The notes beneath the pieces are model-generated. The model saw only the letters and a list, made by a program, of their open reading frames with translations, had not been told where the DNA came from and made no database searches. From the NCBI RefSeq assembly GCF_000372885.1, contig NZ_KB889967.1:1856655-1920654 (forward strand): a stretch of DNA of 64,000 nt, in the 5' to 3' direction. Each line of letters begins with the position of its first letter. Positions within the stretch are counted from its first letter, which is position 1. This DNA is from Methyloversatilis thermotolerans. Its GTDB lineage: Bacteria; Pseudomonadota; Gammaproteobacteria; Burkholderiales; Rhodocyclaceae. Shown piece after piece: positions 8,025 through 46,716 of this stretch. The position numbers and the translations under genes are program-made.

Positions 8025-11000
8025 GCAGGAAACTCCAGATAGAAGCAGGCGCCCTCGCCCGGTGTACTGTCTGCCCAGACGCGTCCCCCCATACGCTGCA
8101 TCGCCTTGCGTACGAGAGCAAGACCCACACCGGTACCGGAGAATTCCTCGACGCGATGCAGGCGCTGGAAAATCTCGAAAATCCTCTCGTGATACTTCAT
8201 GTCGAAGCCTATGCCATTGTCCCTTATCGCGAGCACGATGCACGATCCCTGCTCCGCCGCGCTGATGGTGATGACCGGCGGATGCGCATCGCGGCTGAAC
8301 TTCAGCGCATTGTCAAACAGGTTGCGCAGGATGAGATCAAGCCCCTGACGGTCGGCACGTACCACCAGGGGCGGCACCTGCTGTATCACCTGCGCGGCGG
8401 CAGCCCTGATCTCGTCCACGCGGCGGCTCACCACACTCTGTACCAGTTCGCACAGGTCCACACGCTGCGATTCGAGGGCGCGCCTTTCCATGCGCGAATA
8501 GGCCAGCAGATCCTCGATCAAGGCGTGCATCTGGGCGGTGCCGGCCCGGATGTTGCCGAGGAAACGCACCGCCTGGGGATCGAGCACATCGCCATAGTCC
8601 TCGAGCAGAATCTTGCTGTAGCCGTCTATGCCGCGCAGCGGCGCTTTCAGGTCGTGCGACACCGCGTAGGAGAAGGATTCCAGTTCCTTCATGGCTGACG
8701 TGAGCGCCTCGGTGCGCTCGGCCACACGGCGTTCGAGGTCTGCATTCAGCGCGCGCAGCTCTTCCTGCGCATTCTTCAGGTCGGTGATGTTGCGCGCGAT
8801 GCCAAGCACGCCGATCAACCTGCCGTTGCTGGTACGCATCGGAACCTTGATGGTCTGCAGCAATATGCGCTCGCCGGACGCCTGGGAAACGAGCCATTCC
8901 TCGGTCACGTCGGGAAGTCCGCCCCGTGCGGCGATCTGATCGTGGGCACGGAAGCTGTCGGCCTGCTCGGGACTGACCAGGTCGTAGTCTGTCTTGCCCA
9001 CCAGGTCCGCTTCACGGATGTCCAGGACCTGCTCGAAGACCGGGTTGCAGGACATGAAATGTCCGTCCGGCGACTTGACCCACACCATGTCTGGCAAGGC
9101 AGCGAACAGCGTTCGGAGGTAGGTGCGCTCCTGCTCCGCCGCGCGCTCGGCATGGCGACGCGCCGTGATATCGACCGCCATGAACACGAAAATGCGCGCG
9201 CCATCCGGTGCCGGTATCGAGAAACTGCTTGCTTCGACCGCCAGCGTTCGCCCGCTGCGATGCTGCACCTCGTACTCGGCCGGCCCGAACGCGGTGCGTT
9301 CGCGCTCGAGATGTCTGAGGTGCTCGACGAATACCTGCGCCTGTGCCGCATCCAGCATGAGTTCGTCGCAGCGGCGCCCCATGGCCTCGTCCACCGACCA
9401 GCCGAACAGGCGGCTGGACGCATGATTCCAGTACAGCACACGCCCTTCGCGGTCGAACCACTGCACCGCCACATTGGGCGCGTGTTCCAGCGTTGCGCGC
9501 AGGCGCTCCTCGGATGCGCGCAAGGCCTGCTCCGCCTTGACCGTGTGGCTGACGTCCAGCAGCGTCCCCGCGTAGTGGATCACCGAGCCCGTGTCATCGG
9601 TTTCGTAGGCTGCGGTCGGCCGCAGATAGCGCACCGGTCCGCGATCCGGCGCAGTGCGGTAAAGGTAGGGCCCGCTGATGCGCTGACCCGCATCCATCTC
9701 GCGCACCGCGGTGCGCACCGCATCGCGGTCGTCCGGGTGGATAAGCGCCAGATAACCGGCCTCGTCCGGTGCCTCGTCACCCGGTTCGAGATGGAACAGC
9801 CGGAACATCTGCTCCGACCACCAGGCCCGGCGCGTGCTTGGACTGTACTCCCAGGACCCAAGGCCGGAAATGCGTTCGGCGGCATTGAGCCGGTTGCGCT
9901 CATGTTCCAGCGCCTGCTCCGCGAGGCGGCGCGAGGTGATGTCCTGCAGCACGGCAATGCAGAAATCCGGTGCCGCGCCGGGGCGCCACAGCGGTGTCAC
10001 GCTCAGGCTGACCCACACCACATGCCCGTCCCGGTGCAGCAGGCGCTTGTCGATCTGGAACTCACGCTGCCGGCCGCCGCGCAGCGCCTCCCGGCCAGCC
10101 ATGTCCGCGGCGACATCGTCCGGATGCGTGAGCTGCACGAAGTCCATCTGCAGCATTTCGCTTTGCGTGAATCCGGTGATTTCGCAGTACTTGGCATTCA
10201 CCTCGACGAATCGACCGGTGTGCGCATCCACGCGGGCGACACCGACTCCGGCCTGCTCGAATACGGCGCGCATGCGCTGTTCGCTGTCGCGCAGCGCGGC
10301 ATGCTGGGCCTGCAAGCGTATGGTCATGTCGTTGAAGGCATCGGCGATCCGCGCGAGCTCGTCGCGGCCGCCGATATCGAGCCGCGTGTCGAGCCGCCCC
10401 TCGCCCACCTGACGTGCCGCCTCCGCCAGGCTCTGCGCGCGCCTGAACCAGAACAGGTGGAGGAACAGAGCCAGCAGAAAGGCGGACAGCAATACGAAAA
10501 GCGCATCCCGTTGCAACTCGCCGCGACTTGCGTGCAACCTTTCGGCGACCGGCAGTTCAAGGTCGGAGCGTGCATAGAGCCGATGGCCGGACACCAGCGT
10601 CATGACCGCATAGACCGATTGTCCGTCCGCCGAGGTCGTCACGTTCAACGAGCGATCCATCGGCACCGGCTGTTCCAGCAGCGCGGAAGCCAGGCCACCA
10701 TCGGCAAGTTCGCTGACATGGCGCCCTATGCCCGCGCGATCCAGCGTGCCGAGCACGAGGCCACCGGGCGCGATCAGGAATACGTCGGTCAGATAGGGCC
10801 GCAAGCCCAGTTCCGCGACCGACCTGCGCAGGCGGGTCAGGTTGCGGTTGCTGATATCTTCGTCGAGCTGGGCCTGCATGCCGCCCAGCCGCTCGGCCAG
10901 CGAGCTGGTCTGTTCATGTTCCACCAGGCTGCGGTACTCGCGCAGCCGCAGCGCGTTGTTGGTCAGGGTCACCAGCAGCGCGAACACGGTGAGCAGAAGA

Positions 11001-11038
11001 GGCACCAGGGTGCGTGCGGGCAGGACCGGTCGCCTCAC
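8021..11038 (-). CDS. Membrane sensor histidine kinase with HAMP and several PAS domains
   Basis: A 1,005-residue inner-membrane sensor kinase. A first membrane helix lies near residues 8-28, a periplasmic sensing region follows to about 172, and a second helix spans about 175-198. Next come a HAMP linker (about 198-250) and about four PAS/PAC modules (about 255-760). The dimerisation/phosphoacceptor region contains SYAVSHDLKAPLRGIDG with His near residue 795. The ATPase domain has NLFDNALKFS, DNGIGFD and GTGVGLALV. It starts with GTG at 11038, overlapping the stop of the binding-protein gene (GTGA). The HisKA type and the Rcp1-like regulator downstream make a matched pair. The periplasmic loop may read the state of the co-encoded binding protein (inference). 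Confidence 0.93.
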   Translation of the reverse strand: MRRPVLPARTLVPLLLTVFALLVTLTNNALRLREYRSLVEHEQTSSLAERLGGMQAQLDEDISNRNLTRLRRSVAELGLRPYLTDVFLIAPGGLVLGTLDRAGIGRHVSELADGGLASALLEQPVPMDRSLNVTTSADGQSVYAVMTLVSGHRLYARSDLELPVAERLHASRGELQRDALFVLLSAFLLALFLHLFWFRRAQSLAEAARQVGEGRLDTRLDIGGRDELARIADAFNDMTIRLQAQHAALRDSEQRMRAVFEQAGVGVARVDAHTGRFVEVNAKYCEITGFTQSEMLQMDFVQLTHPDDVAADMAGREALRGGRQREFQIDKRLLHRDGHVVWVSLSVTPLWRPGAAPDFCIAVLQDITSRRLAEQALEHERNRLNAAERISGLGSWEYSPSTRRAWWSEQMFRLFHLEPGDEAPDEAGYLALIHPDDRDAVRTAVREMDAGQRISGPYLYRTAPDRGPVRYLRPTAAYETDDTGSVIHYAGTLLDVSHTVKAEQALRASEERLRATLEHAPNVAVQWFDREGRVLYWNHASSRLFGWSVDEAMGRRCDELMLDAAQAQVFVEHLRHLERERTAFGPAEYEVQHRSGRTLAVEASSFSIPAPDGARIFVFMAVDITARRHAERAAEQERTYLRTLFAALPDMVWVKSPDGHFMSCNPVFEQVLDIREADLVGKTDYDLVSPEQADSFRAHDQIAARGGLPDVTEEWLVSQASGERILLQTIKVPMRTSNGRLIGVLGIARNITDLKNAQEELRALNADLERRVAERTEALTSAMKELESFSYAVSHDLKAPLRGIDGYSKILLEDYGDVLDPQAVRFLGNIRAGTAQMHALIEDLLAYSRMERRALESQRVDLCELVQSVVSRRVDEIRAAAAQVIQQVPPLVVRADRQGLDLILRNLFDNALKFSRDAHPPVITISAAEQGSCIVLAIRDNGIGFDMKYHERIFEIFQRLHRVEEFSGTGVGLALVRKAMQRMGGRVWADSTPGEGACFYLEFPA

Positions 11039-12045
11039 CGGATACTCCTTCCGGCGGCTGCGGGCAGACGCTTGTCGAACAGGTCATTCCAGTCCGGATC
11101 GGCCATCAGCCGCCCGGCCGCCTTCAGGTCGGCGCTCACGCGCTCCAGATCGAGCAGGCCCACCGATGGCGCGGCATCGATCAGCGCGCGGCTTTCGTGT
11201 GCCGAGAACAGCCGGATTCCCTTGAGCGCATCCAGATACTCGCCGGCGCTCAGGCCAAGGCCGGGTGCCAGCAGCCCGGCCGCGGCGTCGACTTCGGACA
11301 GCAGGGCGCGACGGCCGTCGTCGAAGGCACTGAGCAGAAGGGTGACATCGTGCCATCGCGCTTCGGCCACCTCGCCACGTACCACCAGTACGTCGATCAC
11401 CTCGCCCTGGATATGGGCGCTGTCAAGCACGTTGCTGAAGCCCGCGGCAAGCAGCCGGGAAATGACCGGTTCGAAGGTGATCACGGCATCCACCTGCCCC
11501 CGGCGCATCATGTCCTCGTGCATGACCGCCGGCGCATAGACCAGCGTCAGCTCTTCGCTGCGCAACCGTCCCTCCTCGCTCAGGCGCGCAAGCATGGTGG
11601 AGGCAAGGGCGGTGTCCTCGAGGCCAAGGCGAACACCGCGCAGATCGGAAGGCTGACGCAGGTGCGGCGCGGCAATCACCGCATCTCCGCCCTTGGACTG
11701 GCTCAGGATGGCGACGATGCGGATGTCGGTGCCGGTCGCCGCCAGCTCTATCGCCTCGGGCAAGGTCAGTCCTGCCGCGTCGATCAGCCCGTTGCGCAAC
11801 TGGCGAGCGCTGTCCGCGGTGCTCTCCAGTTCCACCACCTTGAGCACGTCGCGATCGACCAGCTCCATCTCGCGTGCGAACACCAGCGGGTCATAGCCGA
11901 TCCACGGGTTCAGCCCGACCGTCAGCGGCGCGCGTGGAGGCGCCTCGCAACCGCCTGCCCCGATGAGCAGGATGGCCGCGAGGGTCAGGCGGACCACGTG
12001 TCGAAATACTCGAAAAAGCGGTTTTGCGGTGTTCTTGTATGCCAT
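11035..12045 (-). CDS. NMT1/TauA-type periplasmic substrate-binding lipoprotein, first gene of a signalling operon
   Basis: A 336-residue binding protein of the nitrate/taurine/NMT1 class. The N-terminus is basic and then hydrophobic, ending in LIGAGGC, a plausible although not perfect lipobox with Cys near residue 33. The mature part starts with LTVGLNPWIGYDPLVFARE and has PSDLRGVRLGLEDTALAS, typical of this fold. No ABC permease or ATPase is adjacent. Instead it heads an operon with a sensor kinase, a response regulator and a cyclic-di-GMP enzyme, all overlapping. The likely role is ligand capture for signalling rather than transport (inference). The ligand cannot be read from the sequence. 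Confidence 0.85.
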   Translation of the reverse strand: MAYKNTAKPLFRVFRHVVRLTLAAILLIGAGGCEAPPRAPLTVGLNPWIGYDPLVFAREMELVDRDVLKVVELESTADSARQLRNGLIDAAGLTLPEAIELAATGTDIRIVAILSQSKGGDAVIAAPHLRQPSDLRGVRLGLEDTALASTMLARLSEEGRLRSEELTLVYAPAVMHEDMMRRGQVDAVITFEPVISRLLAAGFSNVLDSAHIQGEVIDVLVVRGEVAEARWHDVTLLLSAFDDGRRALLSEVDAAAGLLAPGLGLSAGEYLDALKGIRLFSAHESRALIDAAPSVGLLDLERVSADLKAAGRLMADPDWNDLFDKRLPAAAGRSIR

Positions 12046-12982: not shown

Positions 12983-13789
12983 TCATACGATCACGCCGCC
13001 ATCGACCACGATTTCCTGACCGGTAATGTTGCGCCCGCCCTCGCCCGCGAGAAAGCGCACCGTCGCCACCACATCCGCCGTTTCGTTGGGGCGGCGCAAT
13101 GCCATGCCCATGGCCTGTACGTAGCGATCGAGCACCTGCTCCTCGCTGATGCCTTCCGCCTCCGCCTGCGCCGCCCAGCGGTTGCGCATGCGTTCGACCG
13201 CGATCGCGCCCGGCGCCACCACGTTGGCGGTCACGCCATGCGGGCCTACCTCGAGTGCGGCACTGCGGGTGAGACCGCGCAGCGCCCACTTGGATGTGGC
13301 GTAGCCGGCGCGACCGGCGCGGCCACGCATGCCGTGCGTGCCGCCGATATTGATCACCCGTCCGCTGCCCTGCCGGCACATCACGGGCAGCAACAGGGAC
13401 ATGGTGAGGAAGGGCCCGCGCAGATTGGTCGCCATGACCTGGTCGAAATCGCGCACCTGCAACTGCCCGACCGGGTCACCCAGCGGCCCTGGAATGCCGG
13501 CCGCATTGACCAGCACGTCGGCGCGGCCGCCGGACCACTGCAGAAAGGCTTCGACGGCGGATGCCAGCGCATCCTCGTCGCACACATCGGCCGGCAGCAC
13601 GCAGGCGGCGCGTCCGAGCGCACGTATGCGGCCGGCGGTCGCCTCCAGTGCCTCGATGCGGCGGCCCAGCACGCCGACATCGTAGCCATCCTCCGCCAGC
13701 GCAATCGCCACATCCCGCCCGGTACCGCTGCTGGCGCCGGTCACCAGCGCCACCGGCGCCGACCGGTCAGAACCGTGCGTGTCCATCAT
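12983..13789 (-). CDS. Short-chain dehydrogenase/reductase (first of four related copies)
   Basis: A 268-residue classical SDR that should oxidise a hydroxyl or reduce a carbonyl using NAD(P). The cofactor motif is VTGASSGTGRDV, NAAG follows near residue 95, and the active-site pair is Tyr163/Lys167 in YATSKW. The usual catalytic Ser-Ser is replaced by Gly149-Gly150-Thr151 (INIGGTHGMRGRAG), a change shared by all four SDRs in this region. The ATG at 13789 overlaps the PhyH stop (ATGA); a second ATG follows immediately. It is the last gene of the TonB receptor operon, so it probably acts on the product of the neighbouring PhyH oxygenase (inference). Confidence 0.9.
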   Translation of the reverse strand: MMDTHGSDRSAPVALVTGASSGTGRDVAIALAEDGYDVGVLGRRIEALEATAGRIRALGRAACVLPADVCDEDALASAVEAFLQWSGGRADVLVNAAGIPGPLGDPVGQLQVRDFDQVMATNLRGPFLTMSLLLPVMCRQGSGRVINIGGTHGMRGRAGRAGYATSKWALRGLTRSAALEVGPHGVTANVVAPGAIAVERMRNRWAAQAEAEGISEEQVLDRYVQAMGMALRRPNETADVVATVRFLAGEGGRNITGQEIVVDGGVIV

Positions 13790-14658
13790 GCCTTCACCGT
13801 GCGGTCGAACTGGCGTTCGCGCGCCAGCGCCTGGGCCTTGTAGATGGAGCTGCCGGCACGCGACGGCCACGGCAGCTTGATGAAATTCGGCTCGCAGCGC
13901 ACATGGCTGGTTTCCGGGCCGCTCAGGATGCGGCTGTTGTACTCGTCCCAGTCCACGTCGTAGAACAGCGGATAGGCGTCGCTTGCCGCGTACTCGAGGA
14001 AGAGGATGCGGCGCGGATGGCCGGACTTGTTGGCACCCGATCCGTGCATGGTCATCGGGTGGTGCAGCGACACCGTACCGGCCGGACCGGTCAGCGACAC
14101 CGCCTGCGACAGATCCACTTCCTGGCCGATCACGTCGACCGCGCCGACAAAGCCCATGCCCGGTTCATGATGTTCGAACAGAGGTCCCTTGTGGCTGCCC
14201 GGCAGCACATGCATCGGGCCGTTGTCCGGCGTCACGTCGTCGATCATGACCGAGGCGACGCAGGTGGACATATTGGTGTGCGGCGCGAATGCCCAGTCCT
14301 GATGCCATTCCAGCGGCGAACCGGCGCGCGCCGCCTTCATGTTGATCTTGCTGTGGTTGAGCCGGACGTGTTCGCCGCAGATGCGCTGCACCAGTTCGAA
14401 AATGGCCGGATGACGAGCCAGGTTGAAATAGAACGCATCCACGCGATGCGGCTTCTTGATGCGCTGGACCAGCGGCTGGTCAGGCGTGTGATCCGACTCG
14501 AAGTCGAATATCGCGTTGTCCTCGGCCACGCCGCGCGCCTGCGCGGCCACGCGGTCGGTGACCGCGCGCAGTTCGGCCACCTCGGCCGGGCTCAGCGCGC
14601 CCTCGATCAGCGCATAGCCTTGTTCCTGGTATTGCTGGTACAGCTTGTCGGTACTCAT
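13786..14658 (-). CDS. Phytanoyl-CoA dioxygenase (PhyH) family Fe(II)/2-oxoglutarate oxygenase
   Basis: A 290-residue non-haem iron oxygenase of the PhyH family, which hydroxylates substrates using 2-oxoglutarate and O2. The iron ligands are visible as His119 and Asp121 (EWHQDWAF) and His205 (MTMHGSG). Arg216/Arg217 in GHPRR is the likely 2-oxoglutarate contact. The family contains both CoA-ester and small-molecule hydroxylases, so the substrate is open. The start at 14658 has a strong AAGAGGA site upstream; an alternative ATG at 14688 overlaps the stop of the preceding gene (ATGA). It lies between a hydro-lyase and an SDR in the TonB receptor operon, fitting oxidation of an imported compound. 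Confidence 0.88.
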   Translation of the reverse strand: MSTDKLYQQYQEQGYALIEGALSPAEVAELRAVTDRVAAQARGVAEDNAIFDFESDHTPDQPLVQRIKKPHRVDAFYFNLARHPAIFELVQRICGEHVRLNHSKINMKAARAGSPLEWHQDWAFAPHTNMSTCVASVMIDDVTPDNGPMHVLPGSHKGPLFEHHEPGMGFVGAVDVIGQEVDLSQAVSLTGPAGTVSLHHPMTMHGSGANKSGHPRRILFLEYAASDAYPLFYDVDWDEYNSRILSGPETSHVRCEPNFIKLPWPSRAGSSIYKAQALARERQFDRTVKA

Positions 14659-14684
14659 GTCGATGTCCTCTTGTGAAACTCTGT

Positions 14685-15506
14685 TCATGTCCGTATGCCG
14701 GTATCCGACCGGTGCGGCAGGTCGGTGACCGGGACGTCGGTCACCACCATGTGTGCCTTGTGATGCGTAATGCAAAGCGGCAGCCGTGCCGCGCGCGCAG
14801 CAAGCTGCGCGGTCGCGCCACAGGCCCAGAAGACGGGCAGTTCGTCCGGCATGAGCGTGGTCAGCCCGTGACCGCCATAGGGCGCCGACAGATCCGCGAT
14901 GCCTATCAGTTCCGGGGCGCCCAGATGTACCGGCTCGCCGTGGAACATCGGGTAGTGCTGCGACACCGTGATGGCGCGTATCGCGTCGGCAGCGCGCAAG
15001 GCGCGCATCGACACCACGAGCGGACCGGCAAAGGGCCCGGCCGCCTCGGTCTGCAGACCGGTCACATACATGGCCGACACCGTGCCCTCGTCCAGATGCC
15101 TGAGCCGCACGCCTGCCCGTTGCAGCACGGCCTCGAACGAGAACGAGCAGCCCAGAACAAAGGCGACCAGGTCGTCCCGCCACAGATCGGCGATGGACAC
15201 CGGCGTGGCCACCGGTTCGCCGTCGCGGAACACGGTGTAGCCGCCGACATCGGTGCGCAGATCCATATCGGCGGCCAGTTCGGAAACGCGAGGCTCGCCC
15301 GGCCGGCTGCGCCCGAGCACCGGCAGCGCACGCGGGTTGCGCTGGCAGTAGCGCTCGAAATCGTCGGCATGTGCGCGTGGCACGATCATCAGGTTGCCCT
15401 GCACGTGGTCCGGCGCCAGCCCGCTGGTGAAGCCGCGGTAACGACCGTCGCGTATCGCACGCCTGACCGCCGCCGGCGACCGGATATCGAAATCGTATGT
15501 GCTCAT
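14685..15506 (-). CDS. DUF1445/YcsI-type putative hydro-lyase (D-glutamate cyclase family)
   Basis: This 273-residue protein matches the DUF1445 putative hydro-lyase family by SPAAVRRAIRDGRYRGFTSG, APDHVQGNLMIVPR, FVLGCSFSFE and FWACGATAQ. The family includes the mammalian mitochondrial D-glutamate cyclase and bacterial YcsI, which is often near 5-oxoprolinase genes. Reactions known or proposed for the family are dehydration or lactam formation on small acids. It follows tonB by 10 bases. Its presence on the same chromosome segment as HyuA/HyuB (5-oxoprolinase superfamily) is suggestive of lactam or hydantoin chemistry, but this is inference. Confidence 0.85.
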   Translation of the reverse strand: MSTYDFDIRSPAAVRRAIRDGRYRGFTSGLAPDHVQGNLMIVPRAHADDFERYCQRNPRALPVLGRSRPGEPRVSELAADMDLRTDVGGYTVFRDGEPVATPVSIADLWRDDLVAFVLGCSFSFEAVLQRAGVRLRHLDEGTVSAMYVTGLQTEAAGPFAGPLVVSMRALRAADAIRAITVSQHYPMFHGEPVHLGAPELIGIADLSAPYGGHGLTTLMPDELPVFWACGATAQLAARAARLPLCITHHKAHMVVTDVPVTDLPHRSDTGIRT

Positions 15507-15516
15507 CCGGTCAGTC

Positions 15517-16233
15517 TCAGGGCGATACGAACTGCACCGTCACGGTAAACACGTGCTCGTCGCTGCCGGCCCACGCCTCGGCCGGCCACGCCGGGTAACG
15601 GCCGCCACGCACGATGGACAGCGCCTGCTTGTCGAGTATCGGCGAACCGGACCCGCGCTCCACCTCGACATTGCGCACCTGGCCGGACCGCGTGAGCGAG
15701 AAGCGCACGACAGTGGCGCCTTCCGGACGCAGGCGACGCGCATCGCCGGAGGTCGGATACTCGGTGATGCTGCGGATGTAGCCGCGCAGGCGGTCCACAT
15801 AGCCGGCCTGTATCGCCGCCGTATTGACCTGGGGCACCGCAGGTGCCGGTGCCGGCGCGGGCGGCGGCGGCGGTGCCGGGGGCGGAGGCTCGGGTGCCGG
15901 CGGCGGCGCCTCAGGTTGAACGGGCACAGGAGGCGGCGGCGGCTCCACCGCGGGCGTTGGCAAGGGGGCGGGGGGCGGCAGCGGCCTGGGCGGCGCCTGC
16001 TTCGGCGGCGGCACCGGTGCCGGAGGTGGCGGCGGCACCGGCTGCGGCGGCGGTGGTGGCGCCTCGGGCGGCGCCTCTTCCGCCAGCAGCATCACCACCG
16101 GTGGCTCCTCGACCGGCGGCGTCACCTCGGCAGGCCGGATCGCCGGCGCGAAAACGATGGCGAGGACGGCGGCGGCGGTGCCGAGCAGCCCCAGGCTGCC
16201 GGACACCTTCTCGAATGGATCTCGGGTGCTCAC
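15517..16233 (-). CDS. tonB: TonB energy-transducing protein
   Basis: A 238-residue periplasm-spanning TonB that couples the ExbB/ExbD proton motor to an outer-membrane receptor. It has a short cytoplasmic start, one membrane helix (about residues 13-31), a very long Pro-rich spacer (about 38-135) and a C-terminal TonB domain with YPTSGDARRLRPEGATVVRFSLTRSG split over about residues 158-185. The start is a GTG at 16233, 10 bases after the exbD stop. Together with exbB, exbD and a receptor in one operon it forms a dedicated uptake machine. Confidence 0.93.
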   Translation of the reverse strand: MSTRDPFEKVSGSLGLLGTAAAVLAIVFAPAIRPAEVTPPVEEPPVVMLLAEEAPPEAPPPPPQPVPPPPPAPVPPPKQAPPRPLPPPAPLPTPAVEPPPPPVPVQPEAPPPAPEPPPPAPPPPPAPAPAPAVPQVNTAAIQAGYVDRLRGYIRSITEYPTSGDARRLRPEGATVVRFSLTRSGQVRNVEVERGSGSPILDKQALSIVRGGRYPAWPAEAWAGSDEHVFTVTVQFVSP

Positions 16234-16243
16234 GATGGGCCGC

Positions 16244-16654
16244 TCAGGATCGGTGCTTGGCGATGATGGATGCCGCCGGCATGCCTGCCATCTTCAATTG
16301 ATCCAGCAGTTCGACCAGGGTCTGCAGGTTGGAACCGCCGTCTCCGGCGATGATCACCTGCGCCTTCCGGTCACCCGCCCGCTGCTTCAGTCGATCCGCC
16401 ACCGATGCCATCGGCGTGGCTTCGCCATCGACATACACCGCGCCATCGCTGTCCACGGTGAGCGTGATGCGCAATGGCTCGTCCTTCACCGGGTCGGGCG
16501 CAGCCGACCCCGGCAACGCCACGTTCAGGCCCAGCGCCGGCAGCACATTGGTACTGATGAGCACGAAGAACACCAGCAGGAACATCATCACATCGATCAT
16601 CGGAATGATTTCGATGCGCGCCTGGCGCTGCTTGCGTTGGGGAAAGGATCTCAT
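16244..16654 (-). CDS. exbD: ExbD-type biopolymer transport protein
   Basis: A 136-residue ExbD with one N-terminal membrane helix. The essential membrane Asp is in IPMIDVMMFLLVFFVL, and the periplasmic domain ends with VELLDQLKMAGM. A strong AAGGAG site lies 8 bases before the ATG. It works with ExbB as a proton-driven motor for TonB. It sits 12 bases after exbB and 10 before tonB. Confidence 0.95.
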   Translation of the reverse strand: MRSFPQRKQRQARIEIIPMIDVMMFLLVFFVLISTNVLPALGLNVALPGSAAPDPVKDEPLRITLTVDSDGAVYVDGEATPMASVADRLKQRAGDRKAQVIIAGDGGSNLQTLVELLDQLKMAGMPAASIIAKHRS

Positions 16655-16666
16655 GGTCGGCGCTCC

Positions 16667-17257
16667 TTACCGCGTGGTCTCGAGCAGGAAGCTCTTGAAG
16701 TCCTCGGTGATGCATTCGCCGAGCCGGTGCAGGATGTTGTGGCCCACCAGACCGTACAGCGCGGTACCGATGCCGATGGCGGTGGCCAGCAGTGCCGAGC
16801 CGATGCCGCGGCTGACCGCGGACGGGTCGGATACCCCGCCCGCGGACAGCGCCTGGAAGGTGTCCATGATGCCCAGGATGGTGCCGAGCAGACCGAGCAG
16901 CGGCGCGGCGGTCACGATGGTGTCGAGTATCCACAGCCCGCGGTTGATGCTGCCGTCGACGCGCAGGAAAAGCGCCGCCGACAGATCCTCGATGCGGCTG
17001 CGCGTGACCTCGCCCTTGCGCTGCACGTCCACATACTCCTGCATGGCGCGCGTGAGCACGTCATTGCCCGGAGGCAGATCGGGCAGCGGGCTGCCGGCGT
17101 CGGCCTTCACTGCCGCCTCGATCGACTTCGCGATACGCGCGCGCCTGCGGGTCAGATGACCGTAGTAGGCCATGCGTTCGATGATGACGAAGGTGAGCAC
17201 CGCAACGCAGGCGTACAGCACGTTGATGGTAACGGCATGAAGGAAATCCTGGCTCAT
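16667..17257 (-). CDS. exbB: ExbB-type (MotA/TolQ/ExbB) proton channel protein
   Basis: A 196-residue ExbB with three membrane helices: one near the N-terminus (about 8-26) and two in the C-terminal half. The family core is visible in APLLGLLGTILGIMDTF and GIGSALLATAIGIGTALYGL. Two adjacent ATG codons are available at 17260 and 17257; the GAGGA upstream is better placed for 17257. It begins about 10 bases after the receptor stop and forms the motor with ExbD. Confidence 0.94.
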   Translation of the reverse strand: MSQDFLHAVTINVLYACVAVLTFVIIERMAYYGHLTRRRARIAKSIEAAVKADAGSPLPDLPPGNDVLTRAMQEYVDVQRKGEVTRSRIEDLSAALFLRVDGSINRGLWILDTIVTAAPLLGLLGTILGIMDTFQALSAGGVSDPSAVSRGIGSALLATAIGIGTALYGLVGHNILHRLGECITEDFKSFLLETTR

Positions 17258-17267
17258 CATGAAATCC

Positions 17268-19655
17268 TCAGAAACCGACCGCGAAGGTGAGCATCGCGGT
17301 AAAGGGGTTGGCAATGAGATAGTTCGGTCCCGATGTCGGTGCGAGGATGGTCGTGCCGTTGACAGCCGTGGTCGTGACCGAATGAGTCGCGACACCATTC
17401 ACGCCTGACAGGTACTTGCGGTCGGTCACGTTCAGCAGGTTCAGTCGCAGTTCGGGCTTGGTGAAACGAGACCCTGTGGCACCGATGAAGCGATAACCCA
17501 TGCCGATGTCCACCGTGGTGTAGCTGGGAATCTCCTGATCGTTCATGAAGGTGGAGTACTGCTTGCCCACATACTTCAGGCCGACATTGCCGAAGAACAC
17601 GCCGTCGTCGTAATCGACCGCCAGCGCGCCCTGGAAGCGCGGCGCGCGCACTGCCTCCTTGCCGCTGGTGGGCAGGAAGTCATTGACCACTCCATTACTC
17701 ACTGCGATATCCGATTCAATTTCGGTGCGCAGGATTTCGAATGAAACATAGGGCCGGAAATGCTTGTACGGCCGCAGACCGGCTTCGAAATCCAGGCCAT
17801 AGGCCTTCTGCTTGCCGCCATTGATCGGCTCGCTGATGCAAGCGCCGCCGTCACAGACCGTGGACGAAATCTGGCGGTTCTTGAACTCGTAGTTGAACGC
17901 GGTGGCGGTCAGGCTGACCAGCGGCCCCTGATAGCGATAACCCAGTTCCAGCGCGACCGATTCTTCGGAGGGCTGATCCGGTTTCTCGCGTGTTGAAACC
18001 GCGCCGGTGGATGCGTTGTAACGCGGATACAAGGCGCCAGCGGGCAGGATGCGGAAGCCCTTGGATACGCTGGCGAACACGCTGTTCACCTCATCCAGCT
18101 TGTAACGCACCGCCAGCGTCGGAATGGTGGGATTGTCCTCGGCCGAAGTACGGGTGACCGTGCTCGGTACGCGGTTGATGCCGACGCGTTCCAGCCACAG
18201 TTGCTTCACGCCGACATCGATGGCCAGACGGTCTTCCATCAGGCTGATGGTGTCGCCGACGAAGAAGGAATAGAAGTTGTCGTGCGTGTCCTGGTTCCAG
18301 CCATTGATGACTTCGCCATCGGCATTGCGGATCAGGGCGGATTCACCGTTCTTGTCCACCGGCGTGCCATCGGCATTCATCCGGCTGTAGGGGCGATAGA
18401 GCTGATCGCGCGAATGCTGTGCCCACACACCGGCGACCAGGGTGTGGTTATCCATCTGGTAAGTGCCCTTCACCGTCATGCCGGTGCGGATGTTCTTTTC
18501 CAGGATGGGGTTGTAGATGAGCACATTGTTGTCGGTCGTCGTGCCATTGCCATTCAGGTCGACTGCGCTGACCGTATTGCCGAAGCCGACCGAAGGCTCG
18601 CTGATGCTTCGGGTGACAGAGCCCGAGCCGCCGTAGCCATAGTAGAGGTAGGGCGTCACGTTCACCGTGAGCTTGTCGTTCACGCGCAGTTCGGTCGGCA
18701 CCGATACCAGCAGGTTTTCCCACGGGTTCTCGAACATCTTGTAGTAGTTCGTGCTGCCCGGCGTGTAGGTCTTGTCGTAGTTGGTCTGCGCCCCGTCTAT
18801 GCCACCCTGGCGCCATTGGGCCAGGGTGGGATTGCGATAGGTCGCGCGATCGAACTTCGAATACGTGAGCGCGAACTTGGTGCGGCTGCCGCCGCCCCAT
18901 TCCTGCACCGCACCGAAAGCGACGTGCTGCTTGGTGTCGTGTCCGGGTCCGCGGAAGTGATCGGCATCGATCTGAGATACCGACACGAAGGCGCGGAAGC
19001 CGGTGTCACTGATTTCACCGGTTTCCAGCCGCAGGAAGTTGCGGCGCGCATTGTGCGAACCGACCGAACTGGTGAACAGGCCGCCCGCCTTCTTGGACGG
19101 CGTGTGCAGGAACAGATCGACGATGCCGCCGGTGGCGGTCACGTTGGGCGATGCAAGATCCGCCGAACCCTGATTGAGCGTCACCACGTCGGTGTTCTCG
19201 GTGTCGATGTACTGACCCGGAAACACCGACCAGTTGGATGCCACGTTCAGCGGCATGCCTTCGAAGTTGAAACCCATCTGCGTGCCATCCATGCCGCGCA
19301 CCGACAGCACGCCCGGGCTCAGGCCCCAGGCATCGCTGGTGGCGGAATTCGCACCCGGCGAATAGCGGATGAGCTGGAACACGTCGGCCGTCGGTGCCTG
19401 CTTCTGGATGAAGTCGCGCGTGACCGAGCTCTTGGACTTGGACACGTTCTCGTCGACCATCAGACCGCCGCCGATCTCCTTGCGCGTCACCCCGGTCGCC
19501 GACGGCGTCTCCACGGGATTCGCATTCGATGCGCCCGATGCACTGACACGACCGATGTCGGTCTTTTCCTGCTTCGTGGTCGCAGGATCGGTCGTCTGGG
19601 CTACCGCCGCCGTTGTTGCGGCGAGCAGGCAGGTCGCAAGCAAATCGTTTTTCAT
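17268..19655 (-). CDS. TonB-dependent outer-membrane receptor, first gene of a catabolic operon
   Basis: A 795-residue outer-membrane receptor for active import. A signal peptide of about 19 residues ends AVA-QT. The plug domain spans about 70-200 (DVFQLIRYSPGANS, LSVRGMDGTQMG, TATGGIVDLFLHTPSKK) and the rest is a beta-barrel ending in a terminal Phe (MLTFAVGF). There is no N-terminal signalling (STN) domain. The start is supported by AAAGG six bases upstream. Six genes follow with short gaps: exbB, exbD, tonB, a hydro-lyase, PhyH and an SDR. I see no Fur-type site in the 330 bases upstream, so an organic substrate other than an iron chelator is likely (inference). Confidence 0.93.
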   Translation of the reverse strand: MKNDLLATCLLAATTAAVAQTTDPATTKQEKTDIGRVSASGASNANPVETPSATGVTRKEIGGGLMVDENVSKSKSSVTRDFIQKQAPTADVFQLIRYSPGANSATSDAWGLSPGVLSVRGMDGTQMGFNFEGMPLNVASNWSVFPGQYIDTENTDVVTLNQGSADLASPNVTATGGIVDLFLHTPSKKAGGLFTSSVGSHNARRNFLRLETGEISDTGFRAFVSVSQIDADHFRGPGHDTKQHVAFGAVQEWGGGSRTKFALTYSKFDRATYRNPTLAQWRQGGIDGAQTNYDKTYTPGSTNYYKMFENPWENLLVSVPTELRVNDKLTVNVTPYLYYGYGGSGSVTRSISEPSVGFGNTVSAVDLNGNGTTTDNNVLIYNPILEKNIRTGMTVKGTYQMDNHTLVAGVWAQHSRDQLYRPYSRMNADGTPVDKNGESALIRNADGEVINGWNQDTHDNFYSFFVGDTISLMEDRLAIDVGVKQLWLERVGINRVPSTVTRTSAEDNPTIPTLAVRYKLDEVNSVFASVSKGFRILPAGALYPRYNASTGAVSTREKPDQPSEESVALELGYRYQGPLVSLTATAFNYEFKNRQISSTVCDGGACISEPINGGKQKAYGLDFEAGLRPYKHFRPYVSFEILRTEIESDIAVSNGVVNDFLPTSGKEAVRAPRFQGALAVDYDDGVFFGNVGLKYVGKQYSTFMNDQEIPSYTTVDIGMGYRFIGATGSRFTKPELRLNLLNVTDRKYLSGVNGVATHSVTTTAVNGTTILAPTSGPNYLIANPFTAMLTFAVGF

Positions 19656-19810
19656 GAATCACCTTTCTGTCGATGGGTGCGAGGGGATGAGCACGGCCCG
19701 CACGGCCATCGGATCGATGGACGCGTGCGGTTCGATCCCAATCTATCGAGAAGGCGGAGCGACAAGAATTGCTTTTTTCGTGGCGCCCTCTTGCGTGCTT
19801 CGCTACGTGG

Positions 19811-19826
19811 GCGCGGATTTCCGCGC
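19811..19826. repeat. Inverted repeat upstream of the TonB receptor operon (operator or REP-like)
   Basis: GCGCGGA-TT-TCCGCGC is a perfect 7-bp inverted repeat between the receptor start (19655) and the aldehyde dehydrogenase end (19985). Flanking CTACGT and CTACAG give it a REP-like look. It could be an operator for the receptor operon or an isolated REP-type element. The rest of 19656-19926 holds no gene; a weak promoter for the receptor may be TTCTTG/TAGATT on the minus strand (about 19745-19772). Confidence 0.35.
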
Positions 19827-19926
19827 TACAGCCGGTTATGGCGGGCAGCGTGCGCAGCACGCATCGACGGCGGTACAAAACAGCAACACGCAGGAGGCCT
19901 GCGCGCGCACGCGTGAGCGCGCCGAC

Positions 19927-19959
19927 AAAGAAAAAAAGGCCGCGCATCGCTGCGCGGCC
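19927..19959 (-). terminator. Rho-independent terminator after the aldehyde dehydrogenase
   Basis: On the minus strand GGCCGCGCA, a 4-base loop and TGCGCGGCC form a perfect 9-bp stem (19938-19959), followed by a T-rich run (19927-19937). It begins 26 bases after the aldehyde dehydrogenase stop, closing the ABC-SDR-lyase-dehydrogenase operon before the receptor promoter. Confidence 0.85.
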
Positions 19960-19984
19960 CTCTTACGGATCGTCACCCGGCGGC

Positions 19985-21472
19985 TCAGTCGTGCTGTATC
20001 CAGACGCCCTTCACATGCAGGTATTCGTCGAGCTGCTGCACACCGGATTCGCGGCCATAGCCACTCAGCTTGACGCCGCCGAAGGGCATGGATGGATCCA
20101 TCTGGTTGTAGCAGTTGATCCACACCGAGCCGGCGTGCAGACGGCGCGCGAGCGCATGCGCACGGCCGAGGTCGCGCGTCCACACGCCGGCACCCAGTCC
20201 GAACGGTGAATCGTTGGCACGGCCCACCACCTCATCCAGCGTGTCGAAGGGCATGACCGAAGCGACCGGGCCGAATATTTCCTCGCATGCGATACGCATG
20301 TCGTCCCGCACATCGGTGAAGATGGTCGGGGCGACGAAGTGGCCTTTGTCGCGCTCAGGGTCCTGGTAGCGATGGCCGCCGCATGTCAGTCGCGCCCCCT
20401 GCTCGAGCGCACTGTCGACATAACCCAGCACCCGTTCCATCTGCCGCGCCGATACCAGCGGACCGATGTCGCTGTCCGGATCGCAGCCCGGCCCGACGCG
20501 CAGCGATGTGGCGATGTCCGCCATGCGCTCGACCACCTCGTCATGGATGGCGCGCTGAACGTACACGCGGGTGCCTGCGGTGCAGATCTGTCCGGCGTTG
20601 GCGAACACGCCGTAGGCCGCCGCGGCGGCCGCCTGCCCGATGTCGGCATCGTCGAACAGGATGTGCGGAGATTTGCCGCCCAGTTCCAGCGACACCTTCT
20701 TCAGGTTGCCGGCCGATGCGCGCACGATGTCCTGCCCGGTCGCCACCGATCCGGTAAACGACACCTTGTCGACATCGGGATGCGCGGCCAGCGCCGCGCC
20801 CGCGGTGCGGCCGAAACCGGTCAAGACATTGATCACCCCGGGCGGCACGCCGGCTTCCAGCGCCAGTTCGGCGACGCGCAGCGGCGTCAGCGGCGCGTCC
20901 TCGGCCGGCTTGAGTACCAGCGTGCATCCGGTCGCAAGCACGGGTGCGGTCTTGAACACCATGGCCCAGAGCGGACCGTTCCACGGAATGATGGACGCCA
21001 CCACACCCACTGGCTCCTTCAGTGTGGCGGCGAACATGTCGCCATTCATCGACGTGCTCGCGGTCTGTCCGTAGAGCGCGGTGGCCTGCCCCGCGAAGAA
21101 GCGCATCAAGCCCACCAGGTGGCGGCGACTGCCGCGCGTGTGGCGGATCGGCGCGCCCATGTCCAGCGTATCCAGCCAGGCCAGTTCATCCCAGTGCGCA
21201 TCGAGCAGATCGGCGAACTTCAGCATGACCGCCTGACGCTCGTCCGGACGGAAGCGTCGCCAGGGACCTTCGAATGCCGCGCGAGCGGCGCGCACCGCGC
21301 GATCCACATCGTGCTGGTCGCCCTCAGGTACGCGCGCCAGCAGGCTGCCGTCCGCCGGATTGCGTGTTTCGAAACGGCGCCCCGACAGTGCATCGACCCA
21401 GTCGCCACCGATCAGCATGCGCTTGTCCGGTGCATGGAGAAAGGGATGGGTCTGTCCGCGTATATCCATCAT
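19985..21472 (-). CDS. NAD(P)-dependent aldehyde dehydrogenase
   Basis: A 495-residue aldehyde dehydrogenase that oxidises an aldehyde to an acid. The catalytic Cys297 is in FANAGQICTAGTR and the general base Glu264 is in SLELGGKSP. IIPWNGPLWA and KPAEDAPLTPL belong to the cofactor site. Length and motifs fit the betaine-aldehyde/phenylacetaldehyde-type class, which is broad. The ATG at 21472 (with another in tandem) lies 4 bases after the lyase stop. It is the last gene before a strong terminator, so it probably finishes the oxidation of an aldehyde made by the SDR or lyase of the same operon (inference). Confidence 0.93.
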   Translation of the reverse strand: MMDIRGQTHPFLHAPDKRMLIGGDWVDALSGRRFETRNPADGSLLARVPEGDQHDVDRAVRAARAAFEGPWRRFRPDERQAVMLKFADLLDAHWDELAWLDTLDMGAPIRHTRGSRRHLVGLMRFFAGQATALYGQTASTSMNGDMFAATLKEPVGVVASIIPWNGPLWAMVFKTAPVLATGCTLVLKPAEDAPLTPLRVAELALEAGVPPGVINVLTGFGRTAGAALAAHPDVDKVSFTGSVATGQDIVRASAGNLKKVSLELGGKSPHILFDDADIGQAAAAAAYGVFANAGQICTAGTRVYVQRAIHDEVVERMADIATSLRVGPGCDPDSDIGPLVSARQMERVLGYVDSALEQGARLTCGGHRYQDPERDKGHFVAPTIFTDVRDDMRIACEEIFGPVASVMPFDTLDEVVGRANDSPFGLGAGVWTRDLGRAHALARRLHAGSVWINCYNQMDPSMPFGGVKLSGYGRESGVQQLDEYLHVKGVWIQHD

Positions 21473-21476
21473 GACC

Positions 21477-22673
21477 TCACGCCGCCGCGGCAAGCCGCTG
21501 GAATCCGCGCTCGAGATCGCGGATCAGATCATCCGGATCCTCCAGCCCTGCATGCAGACGCAGCGAAGGTCCGGGTTCGGTCCACGGCCGCGCGCTGCGC
21601 AGCGTCGACGGATAGGTGGGCACGACCAGGCTTTCGAAACCGCCCCAGGAATAGCCCATCTGGAACAGTTCGAGATGATCCAGCATGGCGGCGAACTGAC
21701 GTTCGCTGCACGGCCTGAGCACGGCGCCGAACAGGCCGCTGGCGCCGGTGAAATCGCGCTTCCAGATGGCGTGACCGGGGTCATCCGGCAGCGCCGGATA
21801 CATGACACGCGCCACCTCCGGCCGCTGCTGCAGCCAGCGCGCCAGCACGGTCGCGGTTTCCTGGTGGCGGGGCATGCGCACGCCCAGCGTGCGCATGCCC
21901 CGCAGTGCCATGTAGACATCGTCCGGCCCGCCGCAATAGCCCGATCCGGAAGCGGTCTTCTTGACCGGGATGAAACTCTGTTCGGTGCACACCGCGATGC
22001 CCAGCATCAGGTCGGAGTGGCCGGAGATGTACTTGGTCGCGGCATGGATGGACACATCGATGCCGTGCTCGAGCGGGCGGAAGCACAGCGGCGACGCCCA
22101 GGTGTTGTCCATGATGGTGGTGATGCCGCGCGCGCGCGCCACCTTCGCGATGGCCGGCACATCGGTCATTTCGAAGGTGAGCGAGCACGGCGACTCGAGA
22201 TAGATGACCCGCGTGTTCGGCTGCACAAGATGCGCGATATCGGCGCCGATCAGCGGATCGTAATAGGTCACCTGCACGCCGAACTTGATCAGGAACTCGT
22301 CGCAGAACTGGCGCACCGGACCATACAGGCTGTCCACGATGAGCAGGTGGTCGCCGGCCGACAGGAAGGCAGTGAGCGACGCACAGATGGCGCCCAGGCC
22401 ACACGAGGTCACCACCGCGCGATAGCCGCCCTCCAGCCGGGTGACCGCATCTTCCAGCGCGCGCGTGGTGGGCGTGCCTTCACGCCCGTAGGTGAATTGT
22501 TCGAAGGCGCCGCTGGCGCGGTCGCGACGCGTTTCCAGCAGTTGCTCCACCGACTCGAAAATGAAGGTGGATGCGTGATAGACAGGCGGATTGACGATGC
22601 CGTGGTTGGCGGCGGGATCGCGTCCGAGGTGAACCAGTTGCGTGTCGCGTGCGAACAGATCGGTGGATTTCAT
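21477..22673 (-). CDS. Cys/Met-metabolism PLP enzyme (cystathionine beta-lyase-like)
   Basis: A 398-residue PLP enzyme of the trans-sulfuration family. The PLP Lys214 is in AATKYISGHSD, Asp189 (TIMDNTWASP) contacts the pyridine nitrogen and Tyr118 is in DSLYGPV. YSWGGFESL near the C-terminus is typical of MetC-type beta-lyases. The known family reactions cleave C-S or related bonds in amino acids. Here it sits in a catabolic operon rather than with met genes, so the natural substrate may be a different beta- or gamma-substituted amino acid. It follows the SDR by 12 bases. Confidence 0.88.
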   Translation of the reverse strand: MKSTDLFARDTQLVHLGRDPAANHGIVNPPVYHASTFIFESVEQLLETRRDRASGAFEQFTYGREGTPTTRALEDAVTRLEGGYRAVVTSCGLGAICASLTAFLSAGDHLLIVDSLYGPVRQFCDEFLIKFGVQVTYYDPLIGADIAHLVQPNTRVIYLESPCSLTFEMTDVPAIAKVARARGITTIMDNTWASPLCFRPLEHGIDVSIHAATKYISGHSDLMLGIAVCTEQSFIPVKKTASGSGYCGGPDDVYMALRGMRTLGVRMPRHQETATVLARWLQQRPEVARVMYPALPDDPGHAIWKRDFTGASGLFGAVLRPCSERQFAAMLDHLELFQMGYSWGGFESLVVPTYPSTLRSARPWTEPGPSLRLHAGLEDPDDLIRDLERGFQRLAAAA

Positions 22674-22685: not shown

Positions 22686-23465
22686 TCAGATCAGCATGCC
22701 GGCATCGACCACCAGATCCTGCCCGGTGATCAGTCGGCCGCCTTCGGAAAACAGATGGATGACGGCGCGCGCGATATCGTCGCTATCGACCAGGCGGCCG
22801 AGCGCGGTGCGCGACGTGAAGCGCTGCAGCACCGCCTCGTAAGGAATGCCCTCGCGCTGCGCCGACGCTTCGAACAGCCGGGTGAGACGCGGGCCGGCGA
22901 CGCCGCCGGGCGCCACCACGTTCACCGTCACGTTGTGCGGGCCGGCTTCCAGCGCGGCCGACTTGGCGAGCCCGCGCACCGCCCACTTGGACGCCGCATA
23001 GAGCGCCGCGTCGGCCACGCCCTTGTGGCCATAGGTGCCGCCTATGATGACGACACGACCCTCGCGGCGCGCGATCATGTGCGGCATGACACTGCGCAGC
23101 GCCAGCATGACGCCGAGCACATTGATGTCGAAACAGGCGCGGTAATCGTCGACCGAGCTGGCCCAGACCGGCTGGCGCGGACTGCCGACACCGGCCGCGC
23201 ACCCCAGCCGGTCGATGCGGCCGAAGTGTTCGAGCGTGCGCGTGGCCGCGTCCTGCAGCGCCGCGGCGTCGGCCACATCGGCCGGCAGCACCAGCGCGCC
23301 GCGGCCCAGCTCGCGTATGGAGGCGGCGACCGCCTCGCCCGCGGCGCCGTCGCGGCCCACGATGGCCAGGTCGGCGCCCGCGCGCGCCAGCGCGATCGCG
23401 ATATCGGCGCCCAACCCCTTGGTCGCACCGGTGGCGAACACCACCTGTCCGGACAGACTGCTCAT
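22686..23465 (-). CDS. Short-chain dehydrogenase/reductase (second related copy)
   Basis: A 259-residue SDR. The cofactor motif is ATGATKGLGADI. The active-site pair is Tyr156/Lys160 (YAASKW), and Gly142-Gly143-Thr144 stands in place of the Ser-Ser motif (VIIGGTYGHKG). The NAG motif is changed to CAAG. It ends LITGQDLVVDAGMLI, close to SDR copies one, three and four. It lies 3 bases after the second permease gene and 12 before the lyase, so it is part of the uptake and degradation operon. Confidence 0.9.
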   Translation of the reverse strand: MSSLSGQVVFATGATKGLGADIAIALARAGADLAIVGRDGAAGEAVAASIRELGRGALVLPADVADAAALQDAATRTLEHFGRIDRLGCAAGVGSPRQPVWASSVDDYRACFDINVLGVMLALRSVMPHMIARREGRVVIIGGTYGHKGVADAALYAASKWAVRGLAKSAALEAGPHNVTVNVVAPGGVAGPRLTRLFEASAQREGIPYEAVLQRFTSRTALGRLVDSDDIARAVIHLFSEGGRLITGQDLVVDAGMLI

Positions 23466-24296: not shown

Positions 24297-24301
24297 GCCG
24301 C

Positions 24302-25874: not shown

Positions 25875-25999
25875 GGAAAGCCTTCGGGTTGCGTCGCGTT
25901 GCGGCGACGGTTGGATGATGCGATCCAGCCTATCGGATCGACGAAGGGCGCGGGGTGCTGTTCGCTATCGGCGCCGTTGCAGGAATGTCACCGGGTCGC

Positions 26000-27052: not shown

Positions 27053-27251
27053 GGCTGGCCCGAGGATGTGATTGCTCTGGATGCAATCTTGCTCCGTCTT
27101 GCGTCGGGACCTTGTAGCCGTTTGCGCAAGGGGGCGTGACTCAAATGGCACCCCATCGCATGCCCGCTTGTCGGTACCTTTTTGTGTACGCGCTCAGCCT
27201 GGCCGCCGTGTGGCGCCCGGGCCGAACCCATCCAGAAAGGACACGATCTCC

Positions 27252-30319: not shown

Positions 30320-30333
30320 ACGGAGTGAAACAG

Positions 30334-35229: not shown

Positions 35230-35329
35230 GCGGGTCGATCCGTAATGCCGGAGCAGCGCATGCTAGTCGGCCCCCGGACTGCTTCGTGTGGCCGTTTTCG
35301 TGCGCCCTCGCCGCAGGTCCGGCTACGGC

Positions 35330-40290: not shown

Positions 40291-40291
40291 G

Positions 40292-40615: not shown

Positions 40616-40632
40616 GGCTTGCTGGAATCCGC

Positions 40633-42069: not shown

Positions 42070-42077
42070 CGCGACAC

Positions 42078-44521: not shown

Positions 44522-44594
44522 TCCGCACACACACCCTTCCGCCGGCGTCCGGTCACGACCGGACCGTCGCATACACATTTCCAGGAGTCCATCC

Positions 44595-46694: not shown

Positions 46695-46716
46695 CACCCA
46701 CTCACACGGACATCAC

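Follow-up and report, generated by a model that had tools for sequence, protein, structure and literature searches.

In the usual picture, most TonB-dependent receptors compete for one common TonB. Haem loci such as hut and hmu place a receptor gene beside its own tonB, exbB and exbD; they are iron-controlled, serve metal nutrition and carry no downstream carbon catabolism. The system analysed here is a seven-gene unit of Methyloversatilis thermotolerans in which a receptor gene, as in those loci, lies beside its own Ton genes and is followed by catabolic genes, and which differs from them in that no Fur site was found. It lies in a 64,000-nt window, the whole stretch of DNA analysed (contig NZ_KB889967.1, positions 1,856,655-1,920,654), to which coordinates refer.

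DdvT of Sphingobium SYK-6 is a TonB-dependent receptor whose gene lies in the DDVA catabolic cluster, alongside a Rieske oxygenase of the LigXa type. Both ddvT and ligXa are repressed by DdvR, and DdvT is needed at low substrate concentration and is served by a general TonB1-ExbB1-ExbD operon encoded apart (PMC6874591; PMC8599685). The island around the present unit is alike in placing its receptor among catabolic genes with a LigXa-type Rieske oxygenase. It differs in substrate and in carrying exbB-exbD-tonB within the unit, whereas the Ton operon that serves DdvT is a general one elsewhere; DdvR is given as a MarR-family protein, whereas a LysR-type regulator is suspected here. In Sphingobium SHPJ-2, TonB/ExbBD and receptor transcripts go up ∼sevenfold when PheR, which regulates a catabolic operon, is lost; the paper presents this rise as a broader transcriptomic effect and ties PheR to phenanthrene catabolism (PMC13273656). 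In contrast to the PheR regulon, the Ton genes of the present unit lie physically inside the catabolic unit, with an element common to other units. A literature search, thin on subscription papers, returned no receptor-Ton-catabolic cluster like this one. What is unusual is that the Ton motor lies inside the same unit as the catabolic enzymes and, apparently, under the element of the pathway. The arrangement is real, conserved and rare: ordinary parts in a new combination.

Gene order and the shared upstream element

Pfam search and coordinates placed the genes for the receptor, ExbB, ExbD, TonB, a DUF1445 protein, a PhyH-family protein and an SDR collinearly on the minus strand (Table 1), with intergenic gaps of 7, 12, 10, 10, 26 and -4 bp from receptor to SDR. 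An alternative in-frame ATG of the PhyH gene near 14688 would make it overlap the DUF1445 gene. An earlier reading of the sequence alone (the sequence-only reading) had described a tight seven-gene unit with gaps of about 10 bases or overlaps, and the spacing of -4 to 26 bp agrees with it; the interval it gave, 13786-19655, left out the SDR gene, with which the unit runs to 12983. Three receptor relatives are close: those of Candidatus Aquabacterium excrementipullorum (78% identity), of a Rhodoferax metagenome-assembled genome (75%) and of Telmatospirillum siberiense, an alphaproteobacterium (58%). Each of these genomes has the order receptor-exbB-exbD-tonB-DUF1445-PhyH-SDR with gaps of -4 to 67 bp. 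The seven-gene order is thus kept in 4/4 genomes with a receptor at least 58% identical, which is more than chance. Upstream, the hairpin at 19964-19933 separates the unit from the aldehyde dehydrogenase gene, so that the receptor seems to be the first gene of a unit of its own. This hairpin has the longest stem among the matches listed in a scan of the region that gave 12 terminator-like sites against 6.0 expected in shuffles, and the printed sequence of a related locus (L041) shows a comparable hairpin ahead of its receptor gene.

The receptor upstream regions of the window, L040 and L041 have several blocks in common, one of which is also present in Telmatospirillum. A 44-bp element precedes the receptor in 4/4 genomes; within the unit it is found only there, and a second copy precedes another unit of the window, at 43545. 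At these two places CGTAG sits 26-27 bp before ACGAAAA. The window has just two exact copies of ACGAAAAAAGCA, one ahead of the receptor and the other at 43576-43587 before the SDR gene at 43730, and at ≤2 mismatches four matches were found against 1.19 expected. A matrix trained on the four receptor sites gave 0.03 matches of ≥15 bits per 64 kb (both strands) in simulated sequence and none of ≥18 bits in ∼4 Mb, and its best scores in 68 other loci (1.25 Mb) were 17.7 and 16.5 bits. When the window was left out of training, its sites scored 37.7 (receptor), 34.9 (43545) and 18.5 bits (35332). The matrix also found sites before the 2-oxoglutarate (2OG) oxygenase gene in L152 (23.4 bits) and L115 (15.0 bits), in the same place as the window site at 27108.

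The receptor, 43545 and L152 sites stand clear of the control scores. The 27108 and 35332 sites rest on position, each being upstream of, and pointing at, a gene start 60-142 bp away; the former falls between genes only when translation of the binding protein begins at the ATG near 27052, which was taken as its start in place of the GTG of the longest frame. Across the 4.16-Mb genome a pattern drawn from the three best sites (19769, 43545 and 35289) matched exactly at those three, all in the island, and nowhere else. The next best were three sites with 2 mismatches, and 3-mismatch counts equalled those of a reversed control.

Common control of the receptor and island units is supported by the shared element, as far as sequence can indicate. 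On balance the unit is probably the outer-membrane entry step of a substrate-induced island, with receptor, motor and enzymes switched on together through that element. An inducer-responsive regulator, most likely the LysR-type protein of the island, the natural candidate for binding the element, would act at the 44-bp site. It would turn on the receptor and a private ExbB-ExbD-TonB, read from what is predicted to be one transcript, together with the NMT1-type ABC importer for periplasmic/inner-membrane uptake. Co-induced would be the oxidising and ring-opening enzymes, namely PhyH, 2OG oxygenase, Rieske oxygenase, HyuAB, amidohydrolases, SDRs and aldehyde dehydrogenase. The receptor and motor, with TonB putatively paired to its receptor, would form a single inherited module, derived from a family whose neighbours are mostly nucleotide/phosphoester hydrolases; here its order would have changed from exbD-tonB-receptor-exbB into receptor-exbB-exbD-tonB, with catabolic genes joined on.

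Several observations weigh against this proposal. In the matrix trained without the window, the 27108 site (10.6 bits) ranked under a probable chance match at 63112 (11.5 bits), and in the full matrix the 27108 and 35289-35332 copies lie near the best scores of the control loci. No element site above 7.0 bits was found in L119, which carries LysR, SDR, PD40 and Rieske genes, nor any above 4.3 bits in G753, a genome with a 40% identical receptor, yet G753 has the LysR. G753 also has the pathway genes beside its receptor, with Ton genes not found on its contig, and no closely matching published cluster was found.

Descent of the Ton cassette

The ExbB, ExbD and TonB families were found together in the unit, above their Pfam cut-offs (PF01618, PF02472 and PF03544); NCBIfam equivalog models for named ExbB and ExbD were not reached by its proteins. 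The 4.16-Mb genome holds 22 receptor barrels over the Pfam cut-off, 5 TonB C-terminal domains and 6 ExbD, and by comparison of coordinates two of the 22 barrels lie <5 kb from an ExbD gene, the studied receptor and one at 1149235. Receptor relatives were collected by scanning 84,980 species genomes with a four-receptor alignment, which gave 46 loci. All 46/46 have a tonB gene on the receptor strand no further than 3 kb away, and the same holds for exbB in 38/46 and exbD in 37/46; exbD was missed in nine and exbB in eight, with L056, L059 and L070 having <725 bases of upstream contig. These counts were not taken from crude clustering of open reading frames, in which clusters 5, 6 and 7 were largely wrong-strand frames. 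The sequence-only reading had taken an own TonB to be special to this operon. That part fell, since tonB accompanies all 46 relatives, mostly among other neighbours, and since the 26.6-kb contig of G753 gave no exbB, exbD or tonB match at E≤0.05.

In loci beyond the close clade the genes mostly run exbD-tonB-receptor-exbB. Those of Collimonas, Herbaspirillum, Klebsiella, Acinetobacter, Sulfuricella and others have the same receptor family (28-32% identity) and the same ExbB/ExbD clade, and differ in this rotated order and in mostly phosphoester/nucleotide hydrolase neighbours; the 44-bp element does not rise above 17.7 bits in loci of this order. At L036-L085, L122 and L123, a receptor with its own exbD-tonB-exbB lies beside nucleotidase, PLD-like, phytase or nucleoside hydrolase genes.

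ExbB and ExbD have descended with the receptor. The cassette ExbDs (21 rows) are split by a single branch from the 5 remaining genomic ExbDs (support 95/93). Cassette ExbBs were separated from the 4 other genomic copies at 90/91, short of the star given by the tool and with long branches flagged, and the ExbBs of the window, L040-L042 and Methylosinus were joined at 99/100. On a 29-row receptor tree the presence of exbBD needs two changes, both placed as losses provided that the enteric/Acinetobacter group is the correct root; one loss group holds the receptors of G753, Novosphingobium and Gluconobacter. The Ton cassette thus looks ancestral and twice lost in the receptor family. An own tonB being the rule in the family and no Ton genes being found on the G753 contig argue that the cassette was not assembled for the pathway, which can do without it, but was inherited along with the receptor. 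The pathway genes and 40% receptor of G753, without Ton matches, similarly suggest that the pathway-receptor linkage is older or wider than the pathway-cassette linkage.

In a more specific and still tentative form of the entry-step proposal, the system would be an inducible, self-powered uptake module, that is, a heritable receptor-ExbB-ExbD-TonB cassette insulated from the housekeeping Ton system. It would have been redeployed from nucleotide/phosphoester to nitrogen-heterocycle uptake by reordering and operator capture, such that substrate switches on energisation. It is possible, if somewhat doubtful, that the receptor is pathway-specific and exbB-exbD-tonB a passenger kept by linkage, the general Ton system being sufficient. 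G753 has the pathway and receptor with no exb or ton gene found on its contig, the receptor tree carries two cassette losses, the Methyloversatilis genome holds four further TonB-like and five further ExbD-like genes, and DdvT works with a general TonB1 (PMC6874591). Such a passenger is harder to reconcile with tonB beside the receptor in all 46 relatives (exbB in 38, exbD in 37) across several genera, and with seven genes kept in order in 4/4 close genomes despite ≥42% receptor divergence at the far end.

Cargo, transcription and the iron question

The cargo is probably a nitrogen heterocycle bearing a cyclic amide, imide or ureide and either scarce or slow to cross porins, and it may be oxidised by the co-encoded PhyH and SDR proteins. 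Naming the substrate from enzyme look-alikes was tried and rejected, as the nearest solved relatives are spread and point to no single compound. They comprise hydantoinase/allantoinase, atrazine/SAH-deaminase-type amidohydrolases, phthalate-type Rieske oxygenases, EvdO2/EctD-like proteins (for PhyH), ethylene-forming-enzyme/thymine-dioxygenase-like proteins (for the 2OG oxygenase) and two uncharacterised UPF0317 proteins. The ectoine hydroxylase model gave 77.5 bits on the PhyH protein, far under its cut-off of 336.5. Folate, ergothioneine, indole-acetate and methylxanthine routes were considered as further candidates.

A less probable alternative is that the cargo is nucleotide-, nucleoside- or nucleobase-like, as that of the relatives probably is, and that the island degrades a modified nucleobase or a purine/pyrimidine alkaloid. 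The relatives were queried for 5'-nucleotidase, cyclic-nucleotide phosphodiesterase, PLD-like, nucleoside hydrolase, phytase, phytase-like and metallophosphatase genes, and 33 of 43 distant loci carried at least one within ≤10 kb, a count with no background control and with many loci from few genera. The other ten had none of the queried genes (L045, L056, L059, L066, L068, L070, L071, L079, L081 and L084, some of them short contigs). On Methylosinus plasmid pMSC49a the cassette is followed by a 2',3'-cyclic-nucleotide phosphodiesterase gene and on a Chimaeribacter plasmid by a PLD-like gene. A Uliginosibacterium locus carries thymidine phosphorylase, phosphopentomutase, S1/P1-nuclease-nucleotidase and exo/endonuclease genes, and L038 a purine-type permease, a PfkB kinase and a nucleoside hydrolase. 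The receptor family at L036-L085, L122 and L123 is a candidate for energised uptake of nucleotide/organophosphate breakdown products. For the window itself, the hydantoinase/allantoinase-like, TRZ/ATZ and LOG genes would suit a nucleobase, but PLD-like genes need not be nucleases, the relatives are ∼30% identical to the window receptor, and the window island gave no nucleosidase, phosphorylase or nucleotidase match.

It is quite unlikely that the unit is read as two transcripts, with the receptor-Ton part and the enzyme part under different control. A 67-bp gap before PhyH in L152, the largest inner gap in the relatives, leaves room for a weak promoter. In the window, however, the genes are 7-26 bp apart or overlap, the element stands before the receptor only, and no sigma-70-like site was found inside the unit, in a scan that is blind to other promoter types and gave only 1 site in 15.5 kb against 2.4 expected.

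The receptor matched PF07715 at 35 bits (cut-off 23.9) and PF00593 at 126.5 bits (cut-off 27); no STN domain was matched at E≤0.001 in Pfam. Its best general sequence matches were siderophore and haem receptor models, all far below cut-offs; the siderophore-receptor model TIGR01783 gave 76.4 bits, under its cut-off of 223.5. An AlphaFold2 model from a 22-row alignment had a mean predicted local distance difference test score (pLDDT) of 76.1 and a predicted template modelling score of 0.80, with residues 1-63 below a pLDDT of 50. The best fold match in the PDB was PqqU-PQQ (9c4o; TM-score 0.86 by target length, ∼14% identity), followed by FhuA and others at ∼14% identity; FecA and FoxA are also among the matches. 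The model is like PqqU/YncD (9c4o, 6v81) in fold, and the PqqU ligand is a non-siderophore organic compound; it differs in its 14% identity, and the match is generic for the fold class. It fits an organic cargo without showing one. A TDxGxxxxxG stretch after the signal peptide region is conserved in aligned relatives, with G35 and G41 nearly invariant; it is labelled a TonB box from position alone, and pLDDT there is <50.

A 19-bp Fur consensus was scanned over the 64-kb window and gave 0 sites at ≤3 mismatches, a search that would miss weak or divergent boxes. The sequence-only reading had stated that there was no Fur-like site and no STN domain and that the receptor should not be an ordinary siderophore receptor. 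Both observations were confirmed, and conserved catabolic neighbours and the shared element add to them in supporting a catabolic setting. A Fur/siderophore assignment was rejected on the missing STN domain, model scores under cut-offs and missing Fur box. Without STN, the receptor is also not of the FecA transducing type; a FecA-type set, unlike it, lies elsewhere in the window (51061-54941), with an STN receptor adjoining FecR. That the receptor takes up an iron or metal chelate, the enzymes degrading or modifying the organic chelator, is very improbable: siderophore/haem models are its best general sequence matches and FhuA, FecA and FoxA are among its fold matches, but those scores are far below cut-offs and generic for TonB-dependent receptors, the top fold match is PqqU with PQQ, Fur box and STN are lacking, and the element is common to catabolic units.

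The surrounding island

The unit is part of a ∼35-kb catabolic island, reaching to about 46-47 kb, which the sequence-only reading had not described. The Rieske protein gave 96.7 bits against LigXa_C. The G+C content of 62.7% in window 16001-20000, over the receptor gene, is the lowest of sixteen 4-kb blocks (others 64.3-69.7%), and the profile of the window shows no sharp island edge.

Table 1. Features of the receptor unit and surrounding island, in window coordinates
Feature	Position	Strand	Basis
SDR dehydrogenase, last gene of unit	12983-13789	-	PF00106/PF13561
PhyH-family Fe(II)/2-oxoglutarate dioxygenase	13786-14658	-	PF05721 131.9 bits
DUF1445/D-glutamate cyclase family, putative hydro-lyase PRK05463	14685-15506	-	PF07286 164 bits; NF003969 325 bits (cut-off 324)
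tonB, proline-rich, GTG start	15517-16233	-	PF03544 44.2 bits (cut-off 24.6); TIGR01352 44.8 bits (cut-off 27.1)
exbD	16244-16654	-	PF02472 89.8 bits
exbB (MotA/TolQ/ExbB family)	16667-17260	-	PF01618 85.3 bits; under every NCBIfam equivalog cut-off
TonB-dependent receptor, 795 aa, plug and barrel, no STN	17268-19655	-	PF07715, PF00593
44-bp element of receptor unit, ends 114 bp before start codon	19769-19812	-	Aligned in 4 genomes; exact pattern match
Terminator-like hairpin after aldehyde dehydrogenase gene, ahead of receptor	19933-19964	-	14 pairs, 8 GC, T run
Aldehyde dehydrogenase	19985-21493	-	PF00171
Cys/Met-metabolism pyridoxal-phosphate (PLP) enzyme (cystathionine beta-lyase-like)	21477-22673	-	TIGR01324 491.7 bits (cut-off 365.9)
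SDR	22686-23465	-	Domain search
ABC importer: two permeases, ATPase, NMT1/THI5 binding protein	23469-27052	-	PF00528 x2, PF00005, PF09084
Weak element copy before 2OG-oxygenase-HyuA-HyuB	27108-27151	+	15.9 bits
2OG-Fe(II) oxygenase, HyuA, HyuB (hydantoinase/oxoprolinase)	27255-31962	+	PF03171, PF01968, PF02538
PD40 + amidohydrolase protein	32002-35229	-	Domain search
Weaker element copy, LysR stop codon to 60 bp before PD40-amidohydrolase gene	35289-35332	-	15.6 bits; exact pattern match
LysR-type regulator, candidate island regulator	35330-36339	-	PF03466, PF00126
SDR + TRZ/ATZ-type amidohydrolase	36588-38854	+	Domain search
Ferredoxin reductase-like, glutamine-synthetase-like ligase, Rieske oxygenase (LigXa_C)	39052-43400	-	Domain search
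Element copy before SDR 43730/hydantoinase-like unit, in region divergent from Rieske	43545-43588	+	36.5 bits; exact pattern match
SDR, hydantoinase/allantoinase-like enzyme, LOG-family protein, DUF3830	43730-47148	+	Domain search

Much of the island recurs around the related receptors. A ∼31-kb run in Telmatospirillum holds LysR, SDR, hydantoinase-like enzyme, amidohydrolase, Rieske, glutamine-synthetase-like (GS-like) and receptor-unit genes, and further a binding protein, 2OG oxygenase, HyuA, HyuB, PD40 protein, aldehyde dehydrogenase, PLP enzyme, SDR and ABC genes; ferredoxin reductase, LOG and DUF3830 genes were not found in it. The Aquabacterium contig has most of the set, and no counterpart of the hydantoinase-like gene or of SDR 43730 was present in the stretches read. 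In Rhodoferax, Rieske and GS genes directly follow the SDR of the unit. G753 carries LysR, SDR, hydantoinase-like, amidohydrolase, DUF1445, PhyH, SDR, 2OG oxygenase and HyuAB genes, and further SDR, PLP enzyme, aldehyde dehydrogenase, Rieske and GS genes. LysR homologues were found in three related clusters (loci L119, L114 and L150; genomes G428, G430 and G753).

A search of 61 genomes taken as relatives (own included) gave a receptor match at E≤0.001 in 19, and besides the own genome long matches were found only in G043 (two copies, ∼32%) and G022 (31%); the best match in 12 congeners was at E=8.6e-9. In a class-wide draw of 369, no genome passed 1e-40 apart from the own one and G334 (27%). 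The Rieske island marker was found in none of 12/12 congeners at E≤1e-40, and a PhyH protein of >50% identity in 2/398 Pseudomonadota genomes, the own and G753; these two results suggest that the island is rare and was probably moved horizontally. PhyH homologues of ∼40% identity in 7 genomes have other neighbours. On Novosphingobium plasmid pSA1 (L120), a 38% identical receptor lies beside genes resembling, by eye, amino-sugar genes (SIS, deacetylase, PTS).

The pair of Rieske (LigXa_C) and GS-like ligase genes (window 40633-43400) was present in 21/398 Pseudomonadota genomes, own included. A GS-like gene lies beside Rieske in 20/20 other loci read (L124-L143), some near an IclR regulator, and a receptor of the studied family in 1/20 (G753) within the ∼20 kb read. 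Being mostly without the receptor, the pair is therefore a broad module that says little on the cargo. Elsewhere in the window, an NMT1-like binding protein gene overlaps a multi-PAS histidine kinase gene (8021-12045), possibly a ligand-sensing pair, and an AbiEi/AbiEii type IV toxin-antitoxin pair lies upstream of guaA (55464-57252).

If the proposal is true, a receptor that brings its motor along and shares its control with the enzymes acting on the cargo would allow a direct test of whether TonB pools limit uptake and of the possible orthogonality of receptor-TonB pairs. Three oxygenases, HyuAB, a GS-like ligase and an import route of its own make the island the mark of a catabolic pathway not yet described, and the wider receptor family suggests energised outer-membrane uptake of nucleotide-type compounds.

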